IMG/VR virus record: IMGVR_UViG_3300021142_000228
Span: 1-20,823 of that record
Direction: 5' to 3' (one strand)
Length of the DNA: 20,823 bases
Source: a virus
Part shown: positions 1,895 to 20,138 of the stretch, in pieces
Numbering within the stretch: position 1 is the stretch's first letter
How the letters are laid out: each line of letters starts with the position of its first letter
Translations under genes and position numbers: made by a program
The notes under the pieces: model-generated
What the model was told of the DNA's origin: nothing
Database searches by the model: none
What the model saw: only the letters and a program-made list of their open reading frames with translations

Positions 1895-2323
1895 TTACTT
1901 CTCCAAGTTAAAAACTGCACGATTTAAATACCATTGGGCTTTCTTTAGGTTATCTAATCGATCCCCTTTATGGTCTGCCCTAGTAATATATTTGACGACG
2001 TTACCGAGATGGTAGTCTAACTGTTTCGCTTCGATGAAGTCGATAGTCTCAATGCCACCTGTTGTATAGTGCGGTGGGTGGTTGATGTTATCGTTTGTAA
2101 AAACTTCATGCAAATGAATCTCGCCATCATCACGAATTTGTATGAGGGGCATTTCATTTAAAGTTCCACTACGTTGTGGAGTCTTGTTTAAGTTTCTTAC
2201 CTTAGACATCATCGTATAGACATAGCCAATCTTAATGCCTAACTTCTTGGATATCTCAGGTGCGGTCATGCTAGGGTTTTTGTCCATCAAGTTTTTTACT
2301 GCTTCAATTTTGCTAACTTTCAT
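1895..2323 (-). CDS. HTH-DUF3310 fusion protein
   Basis: 142 residues. Residues 1-45 read as a helix-turn-helix (KNPSMTAPEISKKLGIKIGY, then VYTMMSKVR). Residues 80-136 match DUF3310, a phage family that includes a nucleotide-kinase-associated domain: INHPPHYTTGGIETIDFIE, then LGNVVKYITRADHKGDRLDN. The short linker (PQRSG) is encoded by one of the dispersed TCCAC/GTGGA palindromes. An AAGGAGAAGTAA ribosome site precedes the ATG. The start overlaps the upstream gene by 11 nt. DUF3310 is linked to nucleotide metabolism in some phages; the HTH suggests DNA binding. The combined role is inferred. Confidence 0.85.
   Translation of the reverse strand: MKVSKIEAVKNLMDKNPSMTAPEISKKLGIKIGYVYTMMSKVRNLNKTPQRSGTLNEMPLIQIRDDGEIHLHEVFTNDNINHPPHYTTGGIETIDFIEAKQLDYHLGNVVKYITRADHKGDRLDNLKKAQWYLNRAVFNLEK
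2165..2180. repeat. Dispersed palindrome TCCAC-N6-GTGGA, copy 1
   Basis: Perfect arms with loop TACGTT. It lies inside the HTH-DUF3310 gene and encodes PQRSG. The tail on the right (GTC TTGTTTAAGTTT) resembles that of the intergenic copies. Confidence 0.75.
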
Positions 2324-2804
2324 TTACTTCTCCTTTTCTTTGGGTTTGTGCTACTTTAAATAATTGCTTGGTTAAATATTCTGCAAAATGCAAATCAATT
2401 TCTTCATCGGATAAACCATACTTATCTAATAATTCTTGCTTATGTGCATACCTTGCTATTTTCCATCTGTCACTCTCAAGACATTTATCAAGGATAGAAT
2501 TAAATTCTTTATTACCTATACTCATATTCCATCCTGTCATATGATTCCAACAAAGTATCGGTGATGAATTAATCCTATGTTCATAACCTTTAACTATGTT
2601 ACTTACACGATATACTTCATTTTTATCGCCCTTACCGCAAATGTCGCATCTGCCATCCCATTTACGATTCATAGCATTTTTATATATGTTAGAAATCTCA
2701 TTGAACAAGGCTAATATTTCTTTCCTTTCATAGCCATATATTTCATCCAAGCGTTTGTCGTGCGCAAAATTTATTGCGTCGTTAGGAGAAACGTGATTAA
2801 TCAT
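2313..2804 (-). CDS. Cys/His protein, possible degenerate HNH or EndoVII-like
   Basis: 163 residues from ATG 2804, preferred over a TTG four codons upstream because GGAG lies 8 nt before the ATG. A metal-site pattern is visible: CDICGKGDKNE near residues 53-63, then after about 30 residues SPILCWNHMTGWN. CxxC plus CxxH followed by a G resembles recombination endonuclease VII and HNH zinc sites, where CxxC and LCxxH precede the active His. The rest is helical and charged, ending KGEVNES. It overlaps both neighbours, by 8 and 11 nt. The zinc site is reasonably supported; nuclease activity is only a guess because the full HNH triad is not clear. Confidence 0.75.
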   Translation of the reverse strand: MINHVSPNDAINFAHDKRLDEIYGYERKEILALFNEISNIYKNAMNRKWDGRCDICGKGDKNEVYRVSNIVKGYEHRINSSPILCWNHMTGWNMSIGNKEFNSILDKCLESDRWKIARYAHKQELLDKYGLSDEEIDLHFAEYLTKQLFKVAQTQRKGEVNES

Positions 2805-3048
2805 TAGGTACTCCAATAGGAATTCCTTTAGCAGTTAAAGCCAATGGTACAAACCTTAAACCCGACTTATGAAAAGTCGCGGCTTCTATTTCTAGCTTCT
2901 TGGTATTAATAATCTGAACTGCTATTTTTGCTACAGAAGACGCTCGGTGTGCATCGCTTTTACCGTTACGCAATAAATCAAATTCTTCAAACAAAGCTTC
3001 ACAAAGTCCAGCACTCGTTTGTTGTGTTATTTTTAACTTTTTATTCAT
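2797..3048 (-). CDS. Small phage protein of unknown function
   Basis: 83 residues. The central part, ALFEEFDLLRNGKSDAHRAS followed by SVAKIAVQIINTKKLEIEAA, resembles a common phage family with the pattern LFexxxxLrxGkxdxxxAxxxAKlaxqIlxtxklExe, whose function is unknown. A strong AAAGGAGAAGTAA site precedes ATG 3048. It overlaps the neighbouring genes by 8 nt on each side. The C-terminus (FVPLALTAKGIPIGVPND) is extended and hydrophobic. Confidence 0.8.
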   Translation of the reverse strand: MNKKLKITQQTSAGLCEALFEEFDLLRNGKSDAHRASSVAKIAVQIINTKKLEIEAATFHKSGLRFVPLALTAKGIPIGVPND

Positions 3049-3250
3049 TTACTTCTCCTTTAAGGGTTACTGCGGTTATGCCCATATTGGGCGGTTCTTT
3101 TTCGTCACGCACTTTTAGCATCATGTCAGCCAACTCGTAAGAAGCAACTGCTAGTCCTCTCTCACTAAATTGTTTTTTACCTGACATATAGCCGTTCATA
3201 GCAAAGCACGCAATCAAATCTCTTAAATACTCTTTATCTTTATTTTTCAT
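3041..3250 (-). CDS. Small phage protein of unknown function
   Basis: 69 residues starting MKNKDKEYLRDLIACFAMNG. The pattern DLIACFAMNGY followed by LAVASYELADMMLKVRDE matches a small uncharacterised protein found in many phages of Proteobacteria, as remembered. The stop region carries the GGAGAAGTAA ribosome site for the next gene, so the last residues (KGEVNE) are partly set by that site. The upstream ribosome site is weak. Function unknown. Confidence 0.75.
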   Translation of the reverse strand: MKNKDKEYLRDLIACFAMNGYMSGKKQFSERGLAVASYELADMMLKVRDEKEPPNMGITAVTLKGEVNE

Positions 3251-3265
3251 ATTGAAGCCAGTTAT

Positions 3266-3571
3266 TTAGCATCTCCCATCATCTATATCATTAAATAAAC
3301 CATCTAGCATCGTGTCAATATTATTCTCATCGACCACAACTGCCGTTCCACCATTACGTTGAATGTTCTTCATGTGTTCAGCCTGTAATGCCGTAGGCTT
3401 ATTCCCATTAGCTTTACACTCTATGCCGTAAAACTTTCCTTGATAACAAACAAGTATGTCAGGCACACCATTCGCACCATATCCAGCGGTAAACGGCATT
3501 GTGTAATAGATTCCTCTAGCGGTTAAATAGTCTTTAACTTTCTTCTTTACTTTAGCTTCAGGTGTTGCCAT
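3266..3571 (-). CDS. VRR-NUC domain nuclease
   Basis: 101 residues, the full length of a stand-alone VRR-NUC (PD-(D/E)XK superfamily) protein. An early Glu (E5), then GVPDILV with D38, then YGIECKANGN with the E51-x-K53 catalytic pair, then a helix with QAEHM (Q63 region), and a closing strand GGTAVVV at 74-80. This arrangement is the metal-binding nuclease core. Family members cut branched or replicating DNA, often with helicases. Here it probably acts in phage recombination or DNA processing. A GAGGAGAAGATA ribosome site precedes ATG 3571, and the gene overlaps its upstream neighbour by 14 nt. Confidence 0.9.
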   Translation of the reverse strand: MATPEAKVKKKVKDYLTARGIYYTMPFTAGYGANGVPDILVCYQGKFYGIECKANGNKPTALQAEHMKNIQRNGGTAVVVDENNIDTMLDGLFNDIDDGRC

Positions 3572-3947
3572 TATCTTCTCCTCTTAGTTTCATTAGTAAT
3601 GAATATGGCAATACGACAACGAACCAACTATCGCTCGCTTGCCAGCCAACATTTGCCAACTCATTATTCCTCATTAACATAAGATTTAAATGTGATATCT
3701 CGTCATCACGAACTAACTCATGGTCACTTGCAAGTATCATAGCCATCTTACTTTTAACTTCATCAGGCAAAGTCTTTTCATCGAACTCTCTGGTATAACC
3801 GTCAGCGACATACATCGTGTAATGATCTTTTTCTTTACGCAAAGGTACACGATATAAGTCCCATTTATATGGGTGAACAATCGGGCTAAGATTATTTATT
3901 ACCAAGTTAATTCGATGAGGGACTGGACTGATGTTAAGTATTTTCAT
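3558..3947 (-). CDS. Hypothetical phage protein
   Basis: 129 residues if translation begins at ATG 3947, which overlaps the preceding stop as ATGA. ATG 3962 or TTG 3977 would add 5 or 10 residues, and no strong ribosome site decides. The sequence has VPHRINLVINNLSPIVHPYK, ELVRDDEISHLNLMLMRNNE and a hydrophobic SWFVVVLPYSLLMKLRG end. No family or catalytic motif is recognised. It overlaps the VRR-NUC gene by 14 nt. Confidence 0.7.
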   Translation of the reverse strand: MKILNISPVPHRINLVINNLSPIVHPYKWDLYRVPLRKEKDHYTMYVADGYTREFDEKTLPDEVKSKMAMILASDHELVRDDEISHLNLMLMRNNELANVGWQASDSWFVVVLPYSLLMKLRGEDNGNT

Positions 3948-4885
3948 AGTGTTGGCAAACATGGAACGAATGTCCAAACAAAGTCATACACGCTTGGGTG
4001 GGCATTATTTATTTGGATGATATCAAGGTCATTTAACAGTCCACTATGGGGTGGAATTAAATTTGCGTGGTATATAGTATGTCGCCCTTGTTGCTCGTGA
4101 TATACCTTCTGCATAAGCATGATGGGTTGTAAGTGTTCGTGTTTGTCTAAGTTTTTAACTCTAACAAACGGTTCAACTACATTAAATTTAAACCCCGACA
4201 CATCATCTCCAATATGTTTAATTTTACCTACAACTAATTGTCCAAACCCATCAGCACCAATAGCATAAAAGCCACCACCAAAAAATCTTTTTATGTCTGC
4301 TTTTGCAGTTTCTTTTATTTTATCTAGTTTATTATATTTGTCAAGTATTGTTTTACATTCAGCTAAAATATTTAACTCAGTAGTTTCCCCTAGTGCATAC
4401 TTTAATAAGGTGTGTACTTTGTCTACACTTAACGCATCGTCCTTATAAGAACGACCGTGTGAACTTTCTAATGTATGTACTGCACTAAAAAATGATGCTC
4501 TGTAAAAGTGTAAAATTTGTTCTTCAGTAGGTACGATGCTATTACGCTTGATTGTTGCTATCAATGTAGATAACTTCTTACTAAAGAAAGTTTCTTTATC
4601 TTCTCTGCTATGCCCTCTATCCTTAATGAAGTAAGGCGAACGAAAATAATATGTTAGGTTTTTACCTGTATCCTCAGTCCACGCTCTCGCCACCACAAAT
4701 GTGCCTGTTGCATCGGTAAGAACAATCTCCTGTGGTCGTCGGGTATACATCTCGCCTTTCTGTTCTAACGCTAATACTTTTAGCCCAAACTTAAAATTTA
4801 GTTCGTATATTAATTTCTTTACTGGTGTGCTTTCAATAGCGTCTATAACATATTGCTCAGTTAATCCATCGATTGCGTATTTCAT
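3944..4885 (-). CDS. Hypothetical phage protein, 313 aa
   Basis: A full gene with a strong GAAGGAGAAGTGAA ribosome site before ATG 4885. The N-terminal third mixes strands and helices (IYELNFKFGLKVLALEQKGE, then FVVARAW). Helical sequence follows (ILAECKTILDKYNKLDKIKE), then FFGGGFYAIGADGFGQLVVG and a basic, His-rich end (HEHLQPIMLMQKVYHEQQGR). A TCCAC/GTGGA palindrome near the 3' end encodes PPHSG. It neighbours two other unknown proteins and sits downstream of the AAA+/VWA cassette. No function is recognised. Confidence 0.75.
   Translation of the reverse strand: MKYAIDGLTEQYVIDAIESTPVKKLIYELNFKFGLKVLALEQKGEMYTRRPQEIVLTDATGTFVVARAWTEDTGKNLTYYFRSPYFIKDRGHSREDKETFFSKKLSTLIATIKRNSIVPTEEQILHFYRASFFSAVHTLESSHGRSYKDDALSVDKVHTLLKYALGETTELNILAECKTILDKYNKLDKIKETAKADIKRFFGGGFYAIGADGFGQLVVGKIKHIGDDVSGFKFNVVEPFVRVKNLDKHEHLQPIMLMQKVYHEQQGRHTIYHANLIPPHSGLLNDLDIIQINNAHPSVYDFVWTFVPCLPTL
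4040..4055. repeat. Dispersed palindrome TCCAC-N6-GTGGA, copy 2
   Basis: Perfect arms with loop TATGGG, inside the 313-aa gene, encoding PPHSG on the - strand. On the - strand the tail GTGGA-CTG-TTAAATGACCTT resembles the intergenic copies. Confidence 0.75.
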
Positions 4886-4886
4886 T

Positions 4887-5204
4887 TCACTTCTCCTTCA
4901 TTAAAATTTTCGTTAATAAAATATATAACTCTTCATCATTGAGATACCCATACACGTCCTTGTTGTTAGAGTCTACTAATTCATACCACAACTTATTATC
5001 TTTCATGGGACAAACTTCGTATAAGCCTGAGTCCTCATTAGAATAAAACAAATTACCCATAACTACACTAGCACCGTATCCATTAGGAAACTTATACCTA
5101 ACACGTCGAGCAATATAGTCAGTAATATGTATTAGGCTTTTGTCTACCTTGTCCGAAATAATGTATTCCTTGTAGGGCATATCTACTTTTTCTATCTCGA
5201 TCAT
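4887..5204 (-). CDS. Small conserved phage protein
   Basis: 105 residues. The pattern YGASVVMGNLFYSNEDSGLY, then EV, then LWYELV, then DVYGYLNDEELYILLTKI matches a widespread phage protein family, as remembered: S(V/V)-x-G-x-x-S-x-x-x-x-GLWE-x-x-V followed by DV-x-G-x-L-x-x-x-x-V-x-x-x-L. No function is known. AAGGAGAATT precedes ATG 5204. It lies 1 nt from the next gene and 8 nt from the previous one, so it is part of the same transcript. Confidence 0.8.
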   Translation of the reverse strand: MIEIEKVDMPYKEYIISDKVDKSLIHITDYIARRVRYKFPNGYGASVVMGNLFYSNEDSGLYEVCPMKDNKLWYELVDSNNKDVYGYLNDEELYILLTKILMKEK

Positions 5205-5212
5205 AATTCTCC

Positions 5213-6256
5213 TTAATATTGTTCAACTTCTTTGCCGTCAACTGTGATAGTCAAGCCCCACTCGCTTTGAGGGAAACGCTTACCCATCGTATACTCTACA
5301 GGTTTCATCACCTCGTCATGCCGTTTGTATAATTCTTTATTCAGCTTACGTTTAATACTAGAGTAAATATACATCGGGTCAATCTCCGCATTTCCATACG
5401 CACTTGCATACCCATTATCTAAGGTAGATGATCTTACACGACGATACATATTGCCAATATCATGTGCGACTGCAAATGCCAACGCTGAGTCTAGTGGTGC
5501 TACGTTGATATTCTTGTCTGCCCATGCGATCATATTATCTTTAGTTTCTTTACTCAGATAAAAGTTAATTAGTTCATCTTGGTTTGCTAATGACTTTACA
5601 GTATCTACCGCAGTATCCATTAGCGTTTTCCAATCTATTGTTTTAAACATTACCTCGTTGATTTTATAAAAATCTGCATACTTACTAAGAAACTGCTTCG
5701 CATCTTTACGATTGACACGCTTACCAGTTACCTTATAGATAGAAGATTCATGGGGCATCATAGTATCTAAGTTAACCCGCATACCTTTGAAGATTGGGTG
5801 AAAAATATCATTCATTCCTTCCTTATATACCATTCCACCATAACGTGAACTGCGAAAGAACCATCCTCTACTCCATCTACTCATCAATATATTATCTCCT
5901 TGCCCATAGTATTCGCTTGTAAATTCAAACGTGTTGTCTGAACGAATAATACCTAATTCACGAGGAAAATGAATATAGCTTACATACTTTTTGGTTTCAT
6001 CTTTTTCCCAATCACGCAGAAAAATATTTTGTTTTTTATTGTTTTGGTCTTTTTTATATTCTTCCTCTGTGCGGAAAACTTCTTGGTATCTGTAACCATA
6101 CGTCACAACATAAACAGTTTCATCACCTCGTTCTTCAACATAAAAACATTTAGTATTATGTTTCCTATCCGCAATTGGATATCTATTTGTTGTGCCACGA
6201 TACGGCATTTGAGTATTTTTAATCTCGGTAAGTCTATCCCAATGTAATGCTCTCAT
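5213..6256 (-). CDS. Hypothetical phage protein, 347 aa
   Basis: CAAGGAGAAGTGAA precedes ATG 6256. The N-terminus is rich in Arg, Tyr and Thr (IKNTQMPYRGTTNRYPIADR, YVVTYGYRYQEVF). The middle has WSRGWFFRSSRYGGMVYKEG and a helical region around KDAKQFLSKYADFYKINEVM. The C-terminal part carries FAVAHDIGNMYRRVRSSTLD, whose HD dipeptide is not enough for an HD-hydrolase call. It overlaps neither neighbour and lies 1 nt from the 70-aa gene. No family is recognised. Confidence 0.75.
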   Translation of the reverse strand: MRALHWDRLTEIKNTQMPYRGTTNRYPIADRKHNTKCFYVEERGDETVYVVTYGYRYQEVFRTEEEYKKDQNNKKQNIFLRDWEKDETKKYVSYIHFPRELGIIRSDNTFEFTSEYYGQGDNILMSRWSRGWFFRSSRYGGMVYKEGMNDIFHPIFKGMRVNLDTMMPHESSIYKVTGKRVNRKDAKQFLSKYADFYKINEVMFKTIDWKTLMDTAVDTVKSLANQDELINFYLSKETKDNMIAWADKNINVAPLDSALAFAVAHDIGNMYRRVRSSTLDNGYASAYGNAEIDPMYIYSSIKRKLNKELYKRHDEVMKPVEYTMGKRFPQSEWGLTITVDGKEVEQY

Positions 6257-6257
6257 T

Positions 6258-6470
6258 TCACTTCTCCTTGTCTAATAAAGTTAATACTGCTTTCCATAGG
6301 TTTACTTCTTCTTTACTACTATTCTCGTTAACTACTCTCTCCAACGCATAGATGTGTGCCATGTCCCCATGCGTTTGTATCAACAACTCTGCTATGTCGT
6401 GCGAAAATTTAGGATTACTCGCATCAGTGCTATACCATTTTTCATACCGTTTTTCTTTTTCATCAGTCAT
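6258..6470 (-). CDS. Small hypothetical protein
   Basis: 70 residues starting MTDEKEKRYEKWYSTDASNP, mainly helical (DIAELLIQTHGDMAHIYALE, then WKAVLTLLDKEK). It overlaps the end of the VWA gene by 8 nt, so translation is probably coupled; an AAGG sits immediately before the ATG. Its position suggests it is expressed with the AAA+/VWA cassette. Function unknown. Confidence 0.7.
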   Translation of the reverse strand: MTDEKEKRYEKWYSTDASNPKFSHDIAELLIQTHGDMAHIYALERVVNENSSKEEVNLWKAVLTLLDKEK

Positions 6471-7746
6471 CCTTTACCATGACTTTCTTACCTGATGGGA
6501 CTTGTAATGATTTATTCTCAGTAATCATCCACAGGGTAGGGGAAGCGATTGTCCACTCGATATCATCTTCCACATATCCGTCAGTAAACACGATGACACA
6601 TTCTGCGTTAATCTTCTTCTGATTGATGTACTTGTTTACACATGAGACCCTAGTACCGCCACCGCCTAATGGTTTCAATAGCGATGCAATATCTTGGTAA
6701 TGTTCAGGTTTAAAGTATTGTTCACCATGCACATCGTAATCCCACCATATAACTCTTACCGCTTCGGGCGACACCACTTCTACAATCGAAGCCAGTTCCG
6801 TAGCAAATTCAGTCAACTCTTTGATACCGATTGAACCTGATGTATCTATCGCAACTACTACCTCACCGATTGATTCGTTCTCCATGCTTGGTAAGTAAAT
6901 GTCATTAGCCATGTGACGCTTATTCATCTTGCGCCATGTGTATTCATCGTTCCCCTTAGTAGTGGAAGCAACAAATTCTCGCAACACTTCTCGCCAATCT
7001 ATCTTCGGCTCAAGCAAGTCACTAATCTGTCTAGGCATCTTGCCACCCATGCGACCAGCCAACATACCGCCTTCACGCAAAGCCCTATCGATCTTGTCAC
7101 CCAGCTCTTTACGTTCGTCATCGCTTAGACCTTCAACATACGATTCCCAGTCATGCTCATCGAACCCATCGCCACTCATGTCATACTCTTTGCCATTGGC
7201 TTTGATCTTGCCATCTCCCGTTCCACCCCCCTGTGGATTGTTAGGCTTACCACTTGATCCACTTGGTTGTTTTTGTCGTTGAGGGTTCTCCTTACGGATA
7301 TAGTTATAGATCTCACGCATCGACCAATTATGAAAGAACGGATCGTACAATGCACCATCAGGTAGTTCAACGATAGCCTCGTTACTGTTTGCTATTCTTC
7401 CTTTAATATTCTTTATAATGTCATTCACTACAAAGTCCGCCGCCATGTTGGATATCTGCTTATCTTCCTTAAACATATCCTTCCCTCTTGGAATCTGTTT
7501 TAATGCAACGTGCAAATTCTCATGCAATACTAAGCCACGCAACTTTGCTTCTTCTTTGATTTCCTCTATGAATGGTTTAGAATATCTCTTGTTCATGCCA
7601 TCGGTATAAGCCGTAAACTCTTTATCGATTACTTCGGACTTACCCATCAACATCACACCGCTATACAACGCAGTATCGTTGTGTTTCATTAAAGCGATAT
7701 GTGCTTTCTTCAACCGTATTTCTTGTTTGTGCATCGTCATATCCAT
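6463..7746 (-). CDS. VWA protein with N-terminal HExxH (DUF2201-like, CobT-like)
   Basis: 427 residues from ATG 7746, chosen because CAGGAGAAGTGAC precedes it and because the upstream gene ends 1 nt before. Residues 55-85 include HENLH (75-79), an HExxH zinc-peptidase signature in the position expected of the DUF2201 putative metallopeptidase domain. Residues 160-180 are a Ser/Gly/Pro linker. Residues 295-425 form a von Willebrand A domain: MIDAS DTSGS at 301-305, T365 in GGGGT, and D389 in VIVFTDG. VWA proteins of this type pair with MoxR/CobS AAA+ ATPases, encoded here two genes upstream, to remodel or metallate a target protein. The phage target is unknown. Confidence 0.88.
   Translation of the reverse strand: MDMTMHKQEIRLKKAHIALMKHNDTALYSGVMLMGKSEVIDKEFTAYTDGMNKRYSKPFIEEIKEEAKLRGLVLHENLHVALKQIPRGKDMFKEDKQISNMAADFVVNDIIKNIKGRIANSNEAIVELPDGALYDPFFHNWSMREIYNYIRKENPQRQKQPSGSSGKPNNPQGGGTGDGKIKANGKEYDMSGDGFDEHDWESYVEGLSDDERKELGDKIDRALREGGMLAGRMGGKMPRQISDLLEPKIDWREVLREFVASTTKGNDEYTWRKMNKRHMANDIYLPSMENESIGEVVVAIDTSGSIGIKELTEFATELASIVEVVSPEAVRVIWWDYDVHGEQYFKPEHYQDIASLLKPLGGGGTRVSCVNKYINQKKINAECVIVFTDGYVEDDIEWTIASPTLWMITENKSLQVPSGKKVMVKDD
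7222..7237. repeat. Dispersed palindrome TCCAC-N6-GTGGA, copy 3
   Basis: Perfect arms with loop CCCCCT. It lies in the flexible linker of the VWA protein and encodes PQGGG. The right tail reads TTG-TTAGGCTT. Confidence 0.7.
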
Positions 7747-7747
7747 G

Positions 7748-7942
7748 TCACTTCTCCTGTACAATGATTTCAATAGAGTCGCCGTTGTCAACGACTCTTG
7801 CCCTACCGTCTGCTACTTGTTTCAGCCTGAATACTGTAAACTGTTTGAACTCCTCTGCCTTGTATAATGCCCTTTGCCATAAGACAGTCATAACTATCCC
7901 CCATATTATTAAAACTATTTCGCTTGGTGTTATCGTAATCAT
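7748..7942 (-). CDS. Small single-helix membrane protein
   Basis: 64 residues. Residues 8-23 (EIVLIIWGIVMTVLWQ) are one membrane helix. The cytosolic tail holds FRLKQVADGRARVVDNGDSI, which resembles an uncharacterised small phage protein family. AAGGAGAAGAAG precedes the ATG. Its last codons (CAG GAG AAG TGA) also form the ribosome site of the VWA gene, so the two are tightly linked. It sits between the AAA+ and VWA genes, suggesting a membrane anchor for that machine; this is inference from position. Confidence 0.8.
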   Translation of the reverse strand: MITITPSEIVLIIWGIVMTVLWQRALYKAEEFKQFTVFRLKQVADGRARVVDNGDSIEIIVQEK

Positions 7943-7953
7943 TCTTCTTCTCC

Positions 7954-9027
7954 TTAAAATAACTCATGGTTGTTCTTAGCCCACTCTGCGATAGTCGCAT
8001 TGTTTCTAGCCAGCTTAATTGCCTTCGCATTACGCATCATCATAGTAAAGAATACGGCTTGGACTTCTGAACTAGGAATCTTATTAACGAACTGCATAAA
8101 TTTAGTCAACTCGTCTTGCGTATCCAACACATCTACTGCTTGAAACATAATCATTAACTGTGCAGATATCTCGTCAGGTATTTTTACTGACTCTGGAGCT
8201 TTGATAATGTCTTTCACATCGATTAGTGTTTTCTCTAGTGATAAGAAAGCCGACATATCAGCAGATGCAGATTGACCGATAGTGCCAGCCAATGCGACCA
8301 TCGTAGCGTTCTCACCTAAGATATCTCTATGCTTCACAATCACATCGCACTTTGCTAAGGAACGAGGAGAGCAGAATGATAATGAAGTCATGTTAGGTTT
8401 AAAGATGTATGGGTTATCATCTTGATTACCTTCTCTGTATGATGCAAGGACTCTTGGGAACAACGCAACGAAAGCACGAACAACACGAGAAACACCATTA
8501 GCCGATGCCCATTGAAGCCAGTCATTTGCATTTGGTTTACTCATTTCAATCTTACATACACGATTACCAGCATGGGCTAACATCGAATCGCCTACACCGT
8601 CTGACGCATTGTTTGATGTAGCGAAAACCATGCTTCCACTAGGTAGTGGACGATCACCTACCATTCTTTCCAACATCAAGCGAGTAAAGATTACTTGCAA
8701 TAACTTTGGTGCTTTCATAAACTCATCGAGTAGAATAACTTTAGGTCTTGGATCATTGAGGCAGAACAGCGAGGACACATAATATTCTAATGTCTGAGTA
8801 GCATGGTTCGGGATTGTCATACCTATGTCTGACATATCTTTTACGGGACAGTCAACATAGATGTATTGGTAGGCATCGCCAAGATCAGATTCAATCATTT
8901 TTAATAGGCTAGTCTTACCGCAACCTGGCTCGCTTGTTATAACAACTGTCAGGTCTTTACTTACTACGGGAATTAATGTTCTTAGTTCATTGATAGATAC
9001 TGTTGGGACAAAATTCAGCTTACTCAT
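7954..9027 (-). CDS. MoxR/CobS-like AAA+ ATPase
   Basis: 357 residues starting MSKLNFVPTVSINELRTLIP. Walker A is SEPGCGKTS at 32-40, Walker B VILLDEF at 97-103, sensor 1 FATSN at 135-139, and a likely arginine finger in AGNRVCKI (R156). The order and spacing match the MoxR/AAA_5 branch, which forms hexameric rings and works with VWA partners. It should hydrolyse ATP to remodel a protein target with the downstream VWA-HExxH protein. CAAGGAGAAGTAA precedes the ATG. One TCCAC/GTGGA palindrome lies inside, at residues PLPSG just before sensor 1, a place where family members normally carry a PLPDG-like turn. Confidence 0.92.
   Translation of the reverse strand: MSKLNFVPTVSINELRTLIPVVSKDLTVVITSEPGCGKTSLLKMIESDLGDAYQYIYVDCPVKDMSDIGMTIPNHATQTLEYYVSSLFCLNDPRPKVILLDEFMKAPKLLQVIFTRLMLERMVGDRPLPSGSMVFATSNNASDGVGDSMLAHAGNRVCKIEMSKPNANDWLQWASANGVSRVVRAFVALFPRVLASYREGNQDDNPYIFKPNMTSLSFCSPRSLAKCDVIVKHRDILGENATMVALAGTIGQSASADMSAFLSLEKTLIDVKDIIKAPESVKIPDEISAQLMIMFQAVDVLDTQDELTKFMQFVNKIPSSEVQAVFFTMMMRNAKAIKLARNNATIAEWAKNNHELF
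8635..8650. repeat. Dispersed palindrome TCCAC-N6-GTGGA, copy 4
   Basis: Perfect arms with loop TAGGTA, inside the AAA+ ATPase gene, encoding PLPSG. The protein turn is conserved in the family, so this copy could be partly coincidental. Confidence 0.6.
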
Positions 9028-9068
9028 TTACTTCTCCTTGTGTATAAAAAATTAAAAAACTTATGTAC

Positions 9069-9083
9069 GTCACCATGACGTGT
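9069..9083. other. Intergenic hairpin ACGTCA-CCA-TGACGT
   Basis: A perfect 6-bp inverted repeat between the AAA+ and DUF3150-like genes. GTGTATAAAAA occurs on both sides. On the - strand T-runs follow some 8 nt later, so it may be a weak terminator or an mRNA-processing hairpin. Confidence 0.4.
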
Positions 9084-9103
9084 ATAAAAACTGCATCACC
9101 ACA

Positions 9104-10081
9104 TTACTGCATACAACTAAACCCACCAAACCTCGATAAAATATCATCGATCCCTTCCTTGACGTTCGACCGCACAGCATCGCTGTCTCGGATGTCCTCT
9201 GCACTTACACCGTCTAGGACTTTCTCTAGCGATGCTCTTGCTTGTTCTAGCTCGCTATCATGTTTGAGATTAAACACTTTGAAACTATCACACATATCTA
9301 ATGCTTTCTGTACAGTCGTGTCGTATATCTTCCTACGCTTGGTTTTCATCTGACCTGTTTTATCTAAGCCAATATCGTCAGCACCGCAACAATGAGAGAT
9401 ACTTTGCATTACATCGATAAGCCTTCTACTCTGTTCTTTTGCGATGCTCTCGATAATGTCGGAACTTTGCTTACTCAATGTCGTAAATAAATCCTCAGCG
9501 ATATCCTTCGCTATGCCACAACGAAAGTCATTTGTAGGAACTTCTGACACATACAACTGCACGTTGAACTTCGATGCAATCTGTTCTCTCGGTGGATAGT
9601 CCGCACGGTTAAACATAGTACCTTGCTTGAAAGCCATGTCCGATACGATTGAGTCATAGTCCATGACTAATGAATCCACTAATTGATGGAACGCTAACTC
9701 ATGCTCGTGATACTCTTGTTTGAACTTCGGCACATCGATTGATGGTAATAACTGCTGTGATTGATTCCACTTGTAAGTCCTACGTTGAAGCCAGTTATAG
9801 ATAGTCTGCCTGTAATTCACCACCGCTTTGTGCTTGGGATGATTAGCCAATAGATTCTTAACATACCTACCCGCACTTTTGTCTGCATTGTGTGACATAG
9901 TAACTTCATCGCTGATACCACGATCTTGTTTAGTAGCTGACCATACGCTGATATCCACGCTGACCAACACCGCACTACTCGCCAATGAGATTAAATGCTC
10001 AGGCATCTCTAGGTTTAATTTAGTTTGCTCTACTTCTTCTTGATCGGCAAGGTCTTGCCATTCTTCTAAATGTCTGCTCAT
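9104..10081 (-). CDS. DUF3150-like protein
   Basis: 325 residues from ATG 10081, which has AGGGAGAGTAGC before it and overlaps the preceding small gene as ATGA. From residue 35 the pattern LVSVDISVWSATKQDRGISD, a spacer with RYVKNLL, then RRTYKWNQSQQLLPSIDVPK and DYPPREQIASKFNVQLYVSE fits the DUF3150 family as remembered. That family is found beside CobS-like AAA+ and CobT-like VWA genes on phages, plasmids and integrative elements. The C-terminal half is a long helical, Ser/Lys/Asp-rich region. It is probably the third soluble part of the AAA+/VWA machine, perhaps an adaptor. The biochemical role is unknown. Confidence 0.85.
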   Translation of the reverse strand: MSRHLEEWQDLADQEEVEQTKLNLEMPEHLISLASSAVLVSVDISVWSATKQDRGISDEVTMSHNADKSAGRYVKNLLANHPKHKAVVNYRQTIYNWLQRRTYKWNQSQQLLPSIDVPKFKQEYHEHELAFHQLVDSLVMDYDSIVSDMAFKQGTMFNRADYPPREQIASKFNVQLYVSEVPTNDFRCGIAKDIAEDLFTTLSKQSSDIIESIAKEQSRRLIDVMQSISHCCGADDIGLDKTGQMKTKRRKIYDTTVQKALDMCDSFKVFNLKHDSELEQARASLEKVLDGVSAEDIRDSDAVRSNVKEGIDDILSRFGGFSCMQ

Positions 10082-10182
10082 GCTACTCTCCCTATAAATA
10101 AATCCACTATGACGTGGAACGCTATATAAAAAATACTTAATACTAAAAACAGCCATATAAACCACTCTGACTTTTTCATCAT
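10078..10182 (-). CDS. 34-aa membrane peptide
   Basis: ATG ATG at 10182-10177 with a GGGGGG ribosome site before it, reading MMKKSEWFIWLFLVLSIFYI and ending IGRVA; TGA at 10078-10080 overlaps the DUF3150-like ATG as ATGA. Residues 7-25 form a hydrophobic helix after a basic MKK start, so it should insert in the inner membrane. It is the first gene of the long leftward operon, just downstream of the promoter at 10217-10263. A TCCAC/GTGGA palindrome lies inside it. Function unknown. Confidence 0.7.
   Translation of the reverse strand: MMKKSEWFIWLFLVLSIFYIAFHVIVDLFIGRVA
10103..10118. repeat. Dispersed palindrome TCCAC-N6-GTGGA, copy 5
   Basis: Perfect arms with loop TATGAC, inside the 34-aa membrane peptide gene and read in a different frame (FHVIVD) from the other in-gene copies. 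Tail ACG-CTATATAAAA. Confidence 0.75.
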
Positions 10183-10216
10183 TACCCCCCTGTTAAATTT
10201 GTTTCCCTACTAATCA

Positions 10217-10263
10217 TTAGTATAACATAACTTTACATTTAAACATAGTGTCTGCGTAAAGTA
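10217..10263 (-). promoter_or_regulatory. Leftward promoter of the long operon (first of a duplicated pair)
   Basis: On the - strand, an extended -10 TGTTATACT (TATACT at 10219-10224), a 16-nt spacer and a -35-like ATGTTT (10241-10246). The 47-nt segment matches 11862-11908 at 41 of 47 positions without gaps, including a shared TACTTTAC block upstream of the -35. Conservation outside genes supports a real promoter. It lies about 35 nt before the 34-aa gene. Confidence 0.75.
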
Positions 10264-10277
10264 TTTTATGTAAGAAC

Positions 10278-10457
10278 TCATAGGGAATACTCATGTGCTT
10301 GGATTACGACCTCATAACCTAATTGTTTAATTGTGTATATATCCGTTTTAGTTAGCGTAGTGTGTCTTGCTAACTCTGCTAACAGCTTTGCCGTTTCGCA
10401 CTTCGGATAGATCATCTCGTTACCATAGACGTTGCGTCTCTCAACTATGATCTTCAT
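10278..10457 (-). CDS. Small conserved phage protein
   Basis: 59 residues from ATG 10457, which overlaps the preceding stop as ATGA; a longer in-frame start would lie inside the upstream gene. The sequence MKIIVERRNVYGNEMIYPKC, then ETAKLLAELARHTTLTKTDI and YTIKQLGYEVVIQ, matches a small phage family of the form NVYGNExxYPxxxxA-xxLAxLxxxxTLTxxxxxxxKxLGxEV, as remembered. No function is known. It is the last gene of the 11762-10278 unit; no clear terminator follows, so read-through into the next unit is possible. Confidence 0.8.
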   Translation of the reverse strand: MKIIVERRNVYGNEMIYPKCETAKLLAELARHTTLTKTDIYTIKQLGYEVVIQAHEYSL

Positions 10458-10936
10458 AGCCAGTCCGTTACTATCTGACGAGATGGATATGCCCAGTCCC
10501 AATCACCAGTCCCTATTCGCATTTCATCGACATCGTCTGCGTTCTCGCCTAGCCTCACAAAGACAGCACCTATGTATGGATTAGGATTATCCTCATCGTC
10601 AGTCCACTCCTCTGCTAATCTAAATAAACTTTCATGTGCTTTGACTTCAGCGTATTCGGGATACCATTTCCAACTCTCGGCATAGAAGTTAATCTGTAAG
10701 TTCTCCTCGTCTATCCGCATCCCTTCAACTTTCGATTTAGAGTCCGATCCTACTAAATCATCAAAGCATAGTCGGGTTTCTTCCTTCATTTTCGCTTCCG
10801 CTAAGAATGTATAGAATGACTCTCTGCACTTAGCTAGATCAGCTTCTTCTGCATCGCCTTGTTTCTCGCCACTTGCAACTTGGCTTGCTGTAATAAAGCG
10901 TATTGTGTACGCAACCTCAGAACGGTATCCCATCAT
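10454..10936 (-). CDS. MGYRSEV-family phage protein
   Basis: 160 residues, starting MMGYRSEVAYTIRF. The MGYRS(E/D)V start followed by an alpha/beta domain is a common uncharacterised phage family. The protein is acidic overall and ends with GTGDWDWAYPSRQIVTDWL. A GGGGGTG ribosome site precedes two consecutive ATG codons (10936 and 10933); either could be used, and the first overlaps the upstream stop as ATGA. Function unknown. Confidence 0.82.
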   Translation of the reverse strand: MMGYRSEVAYTIRFITASQVASGEKQGDAEEADLAKCRESFYTFLAEAKMKEETRLCFDDLVGSDSKSKVEGMRIDEENLQINFYAESWKWYPEYAEVKAHESLFRLAEEWTDDEDNPNPYIGAVFVRLGENADDVDEMRIGTGDWDWAYPSRQIVTDWL

Positions 10937-11163
10937 TCACCCCCTAAATATTTTTTAACTAGATCGATAGCATCGATTGGACACTCGGCACTTAGAACCA
11001 TTGTCCGTTCAACTCCATTCACAACGTAATTAACTTCATGCAATACTCGTGGCTTAGAATCATCCTTCTCTATAGCCCTCGCTTGGAAGTATTCAGCTTT
11101 CATTTGTGCATCCTTTCTCTCCTCAATCTCATGCTTCAGGTGTTGTGCAAATGTTTTACTCAT
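10933..11163 (-). CDS. Small hypothetical protein
   Basis: 76 residues. The first half is a charged helix (HLKHEIEERKDAQMKAEYFQ), the second half has VNYVVNGVERTMVLSAECPI then DAIDLVKKYLGGE, which looks like a small beta sheet followed by a helix. AAAAGGAGAAGCACC precedes the ATG, sitting inside the end of the upstream gene, which it overlaps by 8 nt. No family is recognised. Confidence 0.75.
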   Translation of the reverse strand: MSKTFAQHLKHEIEERKDAQMKAEYFQARAIEKDDSKPRVLHEVNYVVNGVERTMVLSAECPIDAIDLVKKYLGGE

Positions 11164-11314
11164 GGTGCTTCTCCTTTTTCGGTTGTGGTGTTAATAAATA
11201 GAAATACGGGTTGGTGGTGCGTACTGCTTCAATCTTTTCTGCTAGTGTTGCATCACTTAGGATTACATTAAGCAACGAGAAGTCATCTTGTTTTTTGATT
11301 TTAGTTGTTCGCAT
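11156..11314 (-). CDS. 52-aa hypothetical protein
   Basis: ATG 11314 to TAA 11156-11158, reading MRTTKIKKQDDFSLLNVILS and so on, ending PQPKKEKHHE. An AAAGGGAAATAA sequence precedes the ATG. The gene fills the space between two confident genes and overlaps the next start by 8 nt, as is usual in this operon. It is basic at both ends, with a helical centre (LSDATLAEKIEAV). Function unknown. Confidence 0.6.
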   Translation of the reverse strand: MRTTKIKKQDDFSLLNVILSDATLAEKIEAVRTTNPYFYLLTPQPKKEKHHE

Positions 11315-11343
11315 TTATTTCCCTTTCTTTTCTAGTTCGCTTA

Positions 11344-11562
11344 TCATGTTGTCCTCTTAGGGTTAAGTTGTTTTAGCTGAGTCAGGTCTGTAATCAGCAT
11401 ATAGTTTGATTTGTTGATAGGTGCGATGGTGTACTTTTTTGACTTGAGATGTGCAACCTCATCACCGCAATCTAAGCATAATAAGATTCCTATGCGATAG
11501 CGTTGTTCACTATATGTATCACCACACAATTTGCATTGTGGCATAAAAGTTTCATCAACCAT
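11344..11562 (-). CDS. Small four-Cys zinc protein
   Basis: 72 residues from ATG 11562; a GTG one codon upstream is possible, but the ATG has GGAAGGGGTG before it. CKLC at about residues 10-13 and CLDC at about 29-32 form a four-Cys zinc ribbon. The C-terminus, TIAPINKSNYMLITDLTQLK then QLNPKRTT, is a conserved signature of an uncharacterised phage family, as remembered. It may bind nucleic acid or a host protein. The stop overlaps a possible 10-codon frame that leads into the next gene. Confidence 0.82.
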   Translation of the reverse strand: MVDETFMPQCKLCGDTYSEQRYRIGILLCLDCGDEVAHLKSKKYTIAPINKSNYMLITDLTQLKQLNPKRTT

Positions 11563-11762
11563 CACTCACCCCTTCCGTATTTGTTCTCAAAGAAATCCAA
11601 CCAGTCCTCGAACTCTTTTTCATACTGCTGTATTGCTTGCTCTGTGTTTTCGAGTCCACTAAGATGTGGATTGAGATGTGGATTGGACAATTTAAATTCA
11701 GAATCTAATTGCTCCCATGCTTGCTCTTGTTCTTCCATTAACATAGCTTTAACTCTACCCAT
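11562..11762 (-). CDS. Small acidic hypothetical protein
   Basis: 66 residues starting MGRVKAMLMEEQEQAWEQLD, rich in Glu, Gln and aromatic residues near the C-terminus (YEKEFEDWLDFFENKYGRGE), probably all helical. ATTAGGAGAGTAATC precedes the ATG. It contains a duplicated NPHL-NPHL made by a short DNA repeat next to a TCCAC/GTGGA palindrome (encoding PHLSG). It is the first gene of the second leftward unit, below the promoter at 11862-11908. Function unknown. Confidence 0.72.
   Translation of the reverse strand: MGRVKAMLMEEQEQAWEQLDSEFKLSNPHLNPHLSGLENTEQAIQQYEKEFEDWLDFFENKYGRGE
11655..11670. repeat. Dispersed palindrome TCCAC-N6-GTGGA, copy 6
   Basis: Perfect arms with loop TAAGAT, inside the 66-aa gene, encoding PHLSG. 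A partial duplication (GATGTGGATTG twice) adjoins it. Confidence 0.75.
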
Positions 11763-11788
11763 GATTACTCTCCTAATTGATAAGTGAT

Positions 11789-11804
11789 TCCACGTTTGCG
11801 TGGA
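11789..11804. repeat. Dispersed palindrome TCCAC-N6-GTGGA, copy 7
   Basis: Perfect arms with loop GTTTGC in the 5' untranslated region of the 11762 gene. The right tail TTGTTAAATAAGTTTT resembles that of copies 8 and 9. Confidence 0.75.
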
Positions 11805-11861
11805 TTGTTAAATAAGTTTTACTGCTGGACAACAACGAAAAACGACTGCCTTACTACACTA

Positions 11862-11908
11862 TTAGTATAACATAACTTGACATATAAACAAAGTGTTTCA
11901 GTAAAGTA
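11862..11908 (-). promoter_or_regulatory. Leftward promoter of the second unit (duplicate of 10217-10263)
   Basis: Extended -10 TGTTATACT (TATACT at 11864-11869), 16-nt spacer, -35-like TTGTTT (11886-11891), and the same upstream TACTTTAC block as the other copy. It lies between an 8-bp inverted repeat, CGACTGCC at 11843-11850 and GGCAGTCG at 11933-11940. It should drive genes 11762 to 10278. Confidence 0.78.
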
Positions 11909-11974
11909 GTTAATAGCTAACAAGCGTAATACGGCAGTCGAGGGGTAAGGGTTGGATTGGTGGGGTAGGTCGGC

Positions 11975-12313
11975 TTATCTCTGTTTGTGGAAACTCTTAC
12001 GTCTGAACAGGACTTCATCTCTGTCACCGTTTGCATAGCGTAGGGCTAAAGACTCTTTGCTGATGCCAGTTATCTCTGCCCATTCTTTTAGTGTATGAGT
12101 TTCGGGTTTGGCTTTGGCTTCGAGTTTGTACTCTACGAATATGTTGTAGCTGACTGGTATTTTATTAGGGATTGGTTTCTCTAGTAATGCTTTACCACGC
12201 AATCCTTTTTTCCAACGATGGGATAGGACTTGTATGCTGATGCCACTTTTTTCAGCCCATTCCTTCATTGTGTGTGATTCGTTTCTAAATCTGTATATCT
12301 GCTTCGTAAACAT
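11975..12313 (-). CDS. Tandem helix-turn-helix protein, putative regulator
   Basis: 112 residues made of two similar units joined by a linker of about 25 residues. Unit 1 is ESHTMKEWAEKSGISIQVLS then HRWKKGLRGKALL; unit 2 is ETHTLKEWAEITGISKESLA then LRYANGDRDEVLF. The pattern TxxEWAExxGIsxxxLxxRxxxGxxxxxLl is a short HTH module common in phage DNA-binding proteins. Two modules in one chain would contact two half-sites. AGAGGAAAATCC precedes ATG 12313. The region upstream is filled with ATTCTA-type sites, so it may control its own expression and that of neighbours. It stands outside the two dense operons. Confidence 0.8.
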   Translation of the reverse strand: MFTKQIYRFRNESHTMKEWAEKSGISIQVLSHRWKKGLRGKALLEKPIPNKIPVSYNIFVEYKLEAKAKPETHTLKEWAEITGISKESLALRYANGDRDEVLFRRKSFHKQR

Positions 12314-12437
12314 GGATTTTCCTCTTTGGTTATGTTCTAGAAAAAATTCTAGTTATTCCATTGTATCTTAAAATCTAAGAAGTTTCTAGAATTTTTTTGA
12401 GGGGTATTTTAGAGGGGTTAAGTGATTGATTTTATTG

Positions 12438-12481
12438 TATTATTATTATTATTATTTAATAGATAGTAGTAGTAGTAGTAA
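12438..12481. repeat. TAT and TAG triplet microsatellites
   Basis: About six TAT units pass into TTAATAGA and then five or more TAG units. Non-coding; a + strand frame through it gives only Tyr and Ser runs. Confidence 0.85.
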
Positions 12482-12724
12482 GAAAATTCTAAATTCTACG
12501 GTTTTTAAAAAGGATATACCTTATGGCGATGTTTTTTTATTGACGATATTACACTCTCTGCCACATTGTCGTTCTGTGCAAAAAACGCAATTTAGTAGGT
12601 ATCCCCCTAAAATCGTTTAGAATTTTAGAACTTTTTTACAGAGTTTAATTAAATCAACAAGTTACAAGCGAAAAAAATTCTTCAGTTTTCAGGAAATTCT
12701 AAATCGTTTTTGGAATTTTTCAAT

Positions 12725-12740
12725 TCCACTAGTAAGTGGA
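12725..12740. repeat. Dispersed palindrome TCCAC-N6-GTGGA, copy 8
   Basis: Perfect arms with loop TAGTAA. The repeat continues rightward: TCGTTATTTAAGGTCTTGT, the same as copy 9 except for one base. Confidence 0.85.
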
Positions 12741-12762
12741 TCGTTATTTAAGGTCTTGTCTG

Positions 12763-12829
12763 TCATTTAGAATAAAATTAAATGATGCAACGTATAAATC
12801 TGGCTATCATTTAGAATAAAATTAAATGA
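12763..12829. repeat. Two identical 23-nt palindromic elements, 44-nt period
   Basis: TCATTTA, GAATAAAAT, TAAATGA occurs at 12763-12785 and again at 12807-12829. Each has 7-bp inverted arms. The exact duplication at four helical turns suggests paired protein-binding sites. Confidence 0.75.
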
Positions 12830-12852
12830 CACACTCACGCACTCAAGGATAT

Positions 12853-12866
12853 GTAACTGGTTTCAA
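12853..12866. repeat. GTAACTGGTTTCAA element, copy A
   Basis: The same 14 bases recur at 13750-13763. Both lie next to a gene-end hairpin and to an ACACTC sequence, and both are followed leftward by a TCCAC/GTGGA palindrome, so a longer module has been duplicated. Confidence 0.7.
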
Positions 12867-12877
12867 TTTGACAGGCG

Positions 12878-12910
12878 AAAAAAAACCTGATATGCTATCG
12901 CATATCAGGT
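12878..12910 (-). terminator. Strong intrinsic terminator of the 213-aa gene
   Basis: On the - strand, a perfect 11-bp stem (ACCTGATATGC with its complement), 4-nt loop, then eight T. It starts 10 nt after the stop of the gene at 12920-13561. Confidence 0.92.
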
Positions 12911-12919
12911 CTAAAAATA

Positions 12920-13561
12920 TTACTTAAGCCATACTAAATTAAATGCTTTGATCGACTGTTTTAACTTATCAAGATCAGCAGTTACATCATCACGTTTTTT
13001 AGCACTTCCGCAACGTGCGATCAAACCCGTTTTACCGTCATTGAATACAGCGTCAACGACTTCTGTAAAATCTTTTACAGCAGTTCTAGCATTTTCCTTC
13101 CCTTCGTTTTGAATCCGTCTTGCTTCCCGCTTGAGATCGTTAATGCGATTACTGCAATACGTTTGGACTTCCTTCCTGATCTGTTTGACAATCGGGTACA
13201 TATACGGTTCAGTTTCTTTTAACTTACCAAACACTTGCTGATTAAAGCTAAAGGCAAAATCAACGCCTATTAGTTTCTTATTACTTGCTTCCTTTAGGTT
13301 ATTACTATCATTAACCAACAAGTACTTATCATCAATTACAGCGTATTGCTTCGGCGGATTATTCTCACTAAAACGTAAACGATAACCCTCGTTTAACTGC
13401 TCAAGAGCTTCTTTCGGTATATCTTCGGGGAAGCCTACTACATTGGATAAACAATATCTAGCAACCGATTTAACGGTATCTCCTGCCCTAGCTTGCTTAT
13501 ACGCACCGTCTTTTAATGACGTAATTACTTCGTTTTGTGTTGCAATAGTTTTTGTAGCCAT
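12920..13561 (-). CDS. Hypothetical phage protein, 213 aa, single-gene unit
   Basis: Begins MATKTIATQNEVITSLKDGA; no family is recognised. The centre is IDDKYLLVNDSNNLKEASNK then KLIGVDFAFSFNQQVFGKLK; the C-terminal half is helical and strongly basic (RINDLKREARRIQNEGKENA, AKKRDDVTADLDKLKQSIKA) and ends FNLVWLK. It has its own promoter (13631-13660), an AAAGGAT ribosome site and a strong terminator. This independent expression suggests an abundant product. A basic, soluble protein near a control region could be a DNA-binding or single-strand-binding protein, but this is inference only. Confidence 0.82.
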   Translation of the reverse strand: MATKTIATQNEVITSLKDGAYKQARAGDTVKSVARYCLSNVVGFPEDIPKEALEQLNEGYRLRFSENNPPKQYAVIDDKYLLVNDSNNLKEASNKKLIGVDFAFSFNQQVFGKLKETEPYMYPIVKQIRKEVQTYCSNRINDLKREARRIQNEGKENARTAVKDFTEVVDAVFNDGKTGLIARCGSAKKRDDVTADLDKLKQSIKAFNLVWLK

Positions 13562-13630
13562 GATGTTAAATCCTTTATGAAAAGTTAAACTGCTGAAATA
13601 TGACTAATGAGAATCACTAGCCATGTGTTA

Positions 13631-13660
13631 TATATACCCGATTTTCTAATTAAAAAGCAA
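13631..13660 (-). promoter_or_regulatory. Promoter of the 213-aa gene
   Basis: On the - strand TTGCTT (13655-13660), 18-nt spacer, TATATA (13631-13636). CTTG(A/C)TTTT, GGGTATA(C/T)AT and a downstream ACATG are shared with the promoter at 14304-14333. Palindrome copy 9 ends close to the -35, as an operator might. Confidence 0.7.
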
Positions 13661-13663
13661 GAT

Positions 13664-13679
13664 TCCACTAGTAAGTGGA
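13664..13679. repeat. Dispersed palindrome TCCAC-N6-GTGGA, copy 9
   Basis: Perfect arms with loop TAGTAA, identical to copy 8 including the tail TCGTTATTTAAGGTTTTGT. It sits 4 nt upstream of the -35 of the promoter at 13631-13660. Confidence 0.85.
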
Positions 13680-13749
13680 TCGTTATTTAAGGTTTTGTGA
13701 CGCACTATTGCATATCCGCCATGCACACGCACCACACACTCGGCGATGA

Positions 13750-13763
13750 GTAACTGGTTTCAA
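13750..13763. repeat. GTAACTGGTTTCAA element, copy B
   Basis: Identical to 12853-12866. It adjoins the hairpin after the 61-aa gene. Confidence 0.7.
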
Positions 13764-14869: not shown

Positions 14870-15442
14870 ATGGACACGTATATTCCTGAAATTGAAGCAG
14901 ATATTGCCTTGCCGAAGAACGCGCAAGACGCATTCCCGTCCCTAACACCCCAAGAAGAACTCAACATGCGGGCCAATGTTGTTGCTTTAATGTCAGAATT
15001 AACTGGACAGGCTATATCTCCTACCCAAGATAACGTAGAGGAAGCAAAAAATCTAGCCAGGCAGATGGCAGAGAACCCCAAGTTCCGCCCTGAGTTCAAT
15101 CAATATCCAAATGAAACGCTTGCAATGCTGGCTGGCATGGTTGCGCAGATGAATGTGTCTATCGTTGATGAACTTTCTGAGCTAAAGACATATGTAGTGA
15201 ACCAATTAATTCATTCTGTAGAAGCCGCTAAAGATGTAAAGACTAAAGTTACTGCACTTAGGACTCTAGGTGAGGTAGATGGAGTAGACGCATTCAAAAA
15301 ACGTACAGAAGTTACTCTCAAAATCCAAACTATTGAAGAAGTTGAGGCCGAACTCATAAATTTACTTGACCAAGTAGAGACTAAATATATAGATGTGGAA
15401 GCAAAAGAGGTGTTTGACGAGGTAAAAGACAACGATGAGTGA
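14870..15442 (+). CDS. terS: Probable terminase small subunit
   Basis: 190 residues from ATG 14870 (a TTG two codons upstream is less likely). The N-terminal half has LTPQEELNMRANVVALMSEL then NPKFRPEFNQYPNETLAMLA. The C-terminal half, KTKVTALRTLGEVDGVDAFK then KRTEVTLKIQTIEEVEAELI, matches the end of phage small terminases (xALxxLGxixGVxxFxxxtEvtvxxxTxEEvExxL), as remembered. It directly precedes and overlaps terL by 8 nt, the usual order. Small terminases form rings that recognise viral DNA and regulate cutting by TerL. No ribosome site is visible. Confidence 0.78.
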   Translation: MDTYIPEIEADIALPKNAQDAFPSLTPQEELNMRANVVALMSELTGQAISPTQDNVEEAKNLARQMAENPKFRPEFNQYPNETLAMLAGMVAQMNVSIVDELSELKTYVVNQLIHSVEAAKDVKTKVTALRTLGEVDGVDAFKKRTEVTLKIQTIEEVEAELINLLDQVETKYIDVEAKEVFDEVKDNDE

Positions 15443-16973: not shown

Positions 16974-16982
16974 GGACAAATT

Positions 16983-19532: not shown

Positions 19533-19729
19533 TTGACGGCGAGTCAGCATTAAACCATGTAGCGCGACAGCTAGATGAAAAAATTCTACAACTTCAAGAG
19601 GCTTTAGCAGACGGACGTGTTGAAACTTTTGATGAATATAGAAAAGTATGCGGAGAAGTTAAAGGTCTACTTACCGCACGAACATACATAACAGACCTAA
19701 AACGGAATATGGAGCATGATGATGAATAA
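19529..19729 (+). CDS. Small helical protein of the head-assembly operon
   Basis: 66 residues starting MIDGESALNHVARQLDEKIL. The pattern ILQLQEALADGRVETFDEYR, KVCGEVKGLLTARTYITDLK then EHDDE is an amphipathic helical bundle found in the same place in other phages, after the portal gene, as remembered. The start overlaps the portal stop as ATGA. It is probably a head-completion or assembly helper; no direct evidence. Confidence 0.8.
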   Translation: MIDGESALNHVARQLDEKILQLQEALADGRVETFDEYRKVCGEVKGLLTARTYITDLKRNMEHDDE

Positions 19730-20129: not shown

Positions 20130-20138
20130 GGAGGGTAT

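Follow-up and report, generated by a model that had tools for sequence, protein, structure and literature searches.

The window, by which we mean the whole stretch of DNA analysed here, is a 20.8-kb piece of an uncultured phage genome taken from a virus record. It carries a leftward early arm, beginning with a first early gene designated F0, and a packaging arm on the + strand (14870-20823). Along the early arm, lying both in and between genes, are copies of the palindrome TCCAC-N6-GTGGA. Nine are perfect and five have one mismatch, each standing where a preliminary description of the sequence had placed it. The description had called this number far from chance, and comparison with shuffled sequence agrees: the 14 matches at no more than one mismatch stand against a mean of 0.36, and a largest value of 2, in 100 dinucleotide shuffles of the window. 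A reversed-pattern control gave 0 matches in the window, and the reversed control pattern also gave 0 matches in 12 records.

Positions and setting of the palindromes

The copies had also been described as confined to the leftward half of the window. Their absence from the packaging arm is confirmed, but they do not span the entire early arm and instead mark its promoter-proximal part, since there are none in positions 1-2164 and in complete relatives they stop before most replication genes. The one-mismatch copies, all of which had been counted as members of the family, fare differently from one another. The copy at 5834 is supported and that at 3347 recurs in G002, a relative of 65.7 kb; the copy at 6528 recurs there too, but sits in another reading frame, and its recurrence may reflect protein conservation. 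At 9675 synonymous conservation is not above normal, and this copy may be a chance occurrence, while the copy at 6951 was not seen in relatives. The sites and the elements around F0 are collected in Table 1.

Table 1. Palindromic sites and associated features in the window
Feature	Coordinates	Strand	Setting
F0	12920..13561	-	First early gene, 213 aa, new fold
Putative sigma-70 promoter of F0	13625..13661	-	TTGCTT (-35-like), ~18 nt, TATATA (-10-like)
Composite site, perfect core	13664..13679	-	TAWWTA box TTAAATAAC on upstream side (~13682-13690); directly upstream of putative F0 promoter
Composite site, same box and core as 13664	12725..12740	-	1 nt on: -35-like TTGAAA (12723-12718), N16, TAGAAT (12701-12696)
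Composite site	11789..11804	-	Box TTATTTAAC; 26 nt upstream of start codon of ORF 11562-11762
Perfect core	11655..11670	-	Within ORF 11562-11762, codes PHLSG; no strict outer box
Composite site	10103..10118	-	Box TTATATAGC; ~21 nt upstream of likely true start of F3 (10081)
Perfect core	8635..8650	-	Within AAA ATPase gene; relatives have it at the same codons, CCCAC lineages as a CCCAC-type version
Perfect core	7222..7237	-	Within VWA/DUF2201 gene
One-mismatch core	5834..5849	-	Within gene F24; recurrent in relatives
Perfect core, downstream-side box	4040..4055	-	Within 3' end of F12, 63 nt upstream of next gene
One-mismatch core	3347..3362	-	Within VRR-NUC-like gene; same position in G002
Perfect core, downstream-side box	2165..2180	-	Within HTH/DUF3310 gene

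Several further repeats accompany these sites. Two 29-bp repeats, 93% identical, adjoin site 12725 (12757-12785 and 12801-12829), and a 31-bp repeat with a GAAACCAGTTAC core, its copies 81% identical, lies upstream of the box-and-core sites 12725 and 13664 (12836-12866 and 13733-13763), where it is possibly a further control element. A 54-bp repeat (85%) containing CTTTAC...GTAAAG and a -10-like TGTTATACTAAT occurs at 10216-10269 and 11861-11914, upstream of F3 and of ORF 11562-11762, respectively. ORF 11975-12313 contains two similar HTH-like units (47-bp repeats at 12058-12104 and 12235-12281), with palindromes of the TTCTAGAA type in its upstream region, and the protein encoded at 665-997 has a long Asp/Glu run (EDEDEDEDEDDDDEED).

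The AAA ATPase gene (7954-9027) has 158 relatives in IMG/VR, and 80 of these 158 ATPase loci were kept for comparison. The window belongs to an uncultured family of water phages whose large members measure 60-66 kb. By terminase the nearest phages, at about 50% identity, are 023Pt_psg01, DSL-LC04 and the pelagiphages HTVC027P and HTVC023P; the first 50 kb of each of these four records show no comparable repeat and the phage collection contains no match to F3, so that no cultured member of the family was found. All nine perfect sites of G002 fall within 18.7-32.1 kb. The remaining large records that show a strong motif have the same kind of cluster, 9-14 kb long, which opens at the first early gene and ends where the DNA polymerase gene begins. 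Roughly four sites out of ten are genic, and the nongenic ones often stand 3-35 nt ahead of a start codon.

Among 84,980 bacterial and archaeal genomes scanned, no prophage was found. The only hits were a contig of an actinobacterial MAG, which bears three CCCAC sites, and a gene pair from Spiribacter. The latter, on the chromosome of Spiribacter salilacus, consists of an ATPase gene (36% identical) and a VWA gene with no phage genes around them. Since neither an integrase nor a ParB or ParB_N domain was found in 12 records, and no prophage in the genomes scanned, a repressor of the lysogeny type is unsupported.

Architecture and lineage specificity of the sites

An unbiased search for gapped palindromes recovered TCCAC-N6 as the dominant palindrome of the window's clade, and in the same region of other clades it returned CCCAC-N6, TTCAC-N6, TGGACA-N2, ATCGGG-N4, TGTCG-N8 and CCTGACA-N3. 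With mismatches allowed, two sister contigs were found to carry TCTTG-N6 and TCCTG-N6. Set on a tree of the ATPase, F3 and VWA proteins, the half-site classes largely track the branches, with TCCAC appearing in three separate places, and the half-sites shift by single steps along the phage tree. Within a lineage the stem sequence is constant while the loop or spacer varies from copy to copy. That each lineage has its own spelling of the site suggests that each makes its own putative DNA-binding regulator.

In the N6, TGGACA and ATCGGG classes a second element accompanies this core, a TAWWTA box whose distance from the centre is fixed and which lies roughly one helical turn beyond the core; CCTGACA and TGTCG sites lack it. 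When unique sites are aligned on their centres, the box is marked by A at -17, T at -14 and A at -13, mirrored at +16, +13 and +12. By this strict triplet, 52 nongenic N6 sites have the box on the left only, 32 on the right only, 3 on both sides and 16 on neither, a one-sidedness with a Fisher p of 2.6e-11, uncorrected for relatedness; as with all counts across related genomes here, these observations are not phylogenetically independent. Genic sites divide into 45 left only, 17 right only, 2 both and 26 neither. An initial reading of the whole as a symmetric 34-bp site was replaced by that of a one-sided box after these left and right counts. The second box occurs only at about background rate, from which it follows that one box is enough, and its appearance as the reverse complement on the other side of the core implies recognition of double-stranded DNA. 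At one site in another relative (G036, ~34654-34693) the flanks extend the site to a nearly perfect 40-bp palindrome.

Across 2.9 million viral contigs, the combination of box and core is almost confined to this phage family. Scanning these contigs for it yielded 46 newly fetched stretches, 43 of which carry genes of the family, and the remaining three have one site each, about the number estimated for chance.

Copies inside genes were compared at homologous codons. At one position in the ATPase gene the sequence is TCCACTACCTAGTGGA in the TCCAC clade and CCCACTGCCCAGTGGG or GCCACTGCCCCGTGGG in the CCCAC clade, whereas lineages with other motifs have unrelated sequence at the same codons and no indel. 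Two genic positions were examined, and in both of them site-bearing and site-free homologous codons align free of indels, with half-sites matching the class of each lineage at the homologous codon in different lineages; the genic copies arise through point changes rather than indels. Synonymous conservation is raised at four of the five genic sites tested, and selection on the genic sites acts at the level of DNA.

The first early promoter and the search for a regulator

A site precedes F0 in most relatives, where tandem duplication is frequent and two copies of F0 are often present. In the window the putative F0 promoter begins 3 nt after the core at 13664, and the same arrangement recurs at 12725. 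Across the relatives, a -35-like hexamer (TTTACA, TTTACT, TTGACA and variants) lies 1-3 nt downstream of the core at 28 of 31 F0-upstream sites, compared with 9 of 180 other nongenic sites and 1 of 273 genic sites. A -10-like hexamer follows 16-19 nt further on at 14 of the F0 sites under a strict rule and at several more by eye. Many of these hexamers are TATAAC or TAGAAC, and a scan requiring T at the last position missed the F0 promoters. Outside F0 the palindrome was rejected as a general promoter element: among perfect sites, an adjacent promoter was found beside 2 of the 100 nongenic ones elsewhere and none of the 93 inside genes, no more often than at offset controls. Directly 3' of F0 stands a strong intrinsic terminator (13-bp stem and T run, 12883-12912), so that F0 may form its own transcription unit.

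Among the genes compared, no phage regulator gene was found whose DNA-reading part tracks the half-site. F19, HTH_3-like and the one universal HTH protein of the large records, was rejected as the specificity determinant, its recognition helix being almost constant across half-site classes. F0 and F24 were each modelled confidently as a new fold, with no known DNA-binding fold and no match in the PDB, and were rejected as known DNA-binding folds; in BFVD, F24 matches only uncharacterised phage proteins. A weak test correlating protein divergence with half-site divergence singled out F1 and F23, neither of which is DNA-binding-like. A promoter for an N4-like virion RNA polymerase was also considered and rejected, since the 2248-aa protein of a relative has only an LPD38 domain by Pfam and matches no polymerase in the PDB. 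This giant polyvalent protein, encoded in G002 (L087:2791-9537), is convergent to the early arm.

Interpretation and precedents

We lean towards the view, at somewhat better than even confidence, that the palindromes are double-stranded DNA operators of a phage-encoded, dimeric and lineage-specific regulator, likely acting as a stoperator-like roadblock or silencer of early transcription. Both binding by a phage protein and repression are here inferred from sequence. The earlier suggestion that a phage DNA-binding protein binds these sites finds good support in the symmetric core with its single invertible outer box, in an architecture that is shared while the half-sites differ between lineages, and in the restriction to the phage family. 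The putative regulator would be a homodimer (or tetramer) reading two inverted half-sites of lineage-specific sequence one helical turn apart, with one extra contact, on one side, to the TAWWTA box some 10 bp beyond the core. At F0 the bound protein would lie directly against the -35 element, from where it could switch or modulate the promoter, and at leader and genic sites it would most likely, in the manner of stoperators, block or silence transcription through the half of the early operon nearest the promoter. Repression with roadblocking is the simplest reading because the placement at the F0 promoter is combined with many copies in the leaders and genes of the same unit, and bound sites probably silence or road-block early transcription.

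The same placement admits an activator or processivity site, by which the F0 promoter is activated from just upstream of its -35 and internal copies titrate or autoregulate. The 28 of 31 F0 sites favour it, and a position just upstream of the -35 would allow contact with sigma region 4 or the alpha C-terminal domain, but most sites lie in genes or leaders without an adjacent promoter and synonymously constrained genic copies are hard to explain as mere sinks, leaving this reading unlikely. Sites that organise the chromosome or hold and position phage DNA in the manner of ParB/parS do not need promoters, and some ten palindromes in one 9-14 kb region would suit them. We regard this as improbable, given the lack of a ParB_N domain in the 12 records, the way in which the sites follow the early transcription unit just ahead of start codons, and the promoter-abutting arrangement at F0. 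Operators of a host-encoded regulator, differing in specificity between the hosts of the lineages, would fit the failure to find a tracking phage gene; the near exclusivity of box and core to this family and the single-step changes along the phage tree make that rather improbable.

Two other proposals of the preliminary description fared less well. Hairpins in early transcripts, serving processing, stability or an RNA-binding regulator, are decidedly improbable. Every core could form a stem-loop in the transcript, several lie 3-35 nt ahead of start codons, and TCCAC copies show a weak sense-strand excess of wobble pairs (39 vs 25), but CCCAC copies show no such bias (32 vs 33), the outer box flips as its reverse complement, and an innermost A-T pair is conserved with N2 spacers, where it is unable to form. 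The fixed stem sequence and variable loop within a lineage point the same way, and the wobble and box counts do not show strand-specific pairing kept through compensatory or G-U changes. A miniature mobile or selfish palindromic repeat would account for many dispersed copies inside and between genes. It was rejected as extremely improbable once relatives were compared for empty sites, as site-free homologues align without insertion at the two genic positions examined; homologous codons hold different palindromes in different lineages, and spacers vary among copies.

Returning to operators of a phage regulator, inverted-repeat operators are dispersed over the early region of Streptomyces phage phiC31, which has a known repressor and a temperate lifestyle, unlike the phages here. 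The nearest system of known function is that of the Cluster A stoperators, 13-bp asymmetric sites that are bound by a monomer, oriented with transcription and found in temperate phages with a known repressor (PMC9283540, PMC6550527). Shared with them are many dispersed early-region sites, genic and intergenic, lineage-specific variants, and recognition via more than one contact module (PMC9283540, PMC6550527). In contrast, the core here is palindromic with a box on either side, so that an asymmetric site oriented with transcription was not found, and temperate character is not indicated by integrase or ParB_N in 12 records or by prophages, nor an HTH repressor by any compared gene that tracks the half-site. 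We do not class the sites as Cluster A stoperators, given the asymmetry of the latter and their occurrence in temperate phages whose repressor is known.

The closest precedent is the 17-bp repeat of the Cluster O (Corndog-type) mycobacteriophages, TGTTCGG-N3-CCGAACA, present in 34 copies with function unknown (PMC4351075). Both systems have dispersed perfect palindromes with invariant inverted half-sites and a variable centre, found both within genes and outside them, concentrated in a single leftward operon, at conserved positions, lost by point changes and without integrase (PMC4351075). The Cluster O repeat differs in being one sequence in a cluster of close relatives, with no lineage series of half-sites, no outer box reported and no description of abutting one gene's promoter (PMC4351075), and its half-sites are not those of this family.

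An odd repeat thereby becomes a testable regulatory system, with a natural specificity series (TTCAC, TCCAC, CCCAC, TCCTG, TCTTG and more divergent forms), mostly on one architecture, within a single uncultured phage family that is widespread. Such a system would shed light on the dispersed palindromes of Cluster O phages and would show a regulator switching its recognition sequence while some ten sites, several of them inside protein genes, follow. More tentatively, and against the balance of probability, these may be phages without recognisable lysogeny genes that use stoperator-like silencing through a DNA-binding protein of novel type, its recognition diversifying stepwise on a fixed core and one-sided box, perhaps with mutual exclusion in co-infection. 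The question raised is why phages in which no integrase or partition genes were found should carry dispersed silencing sites.
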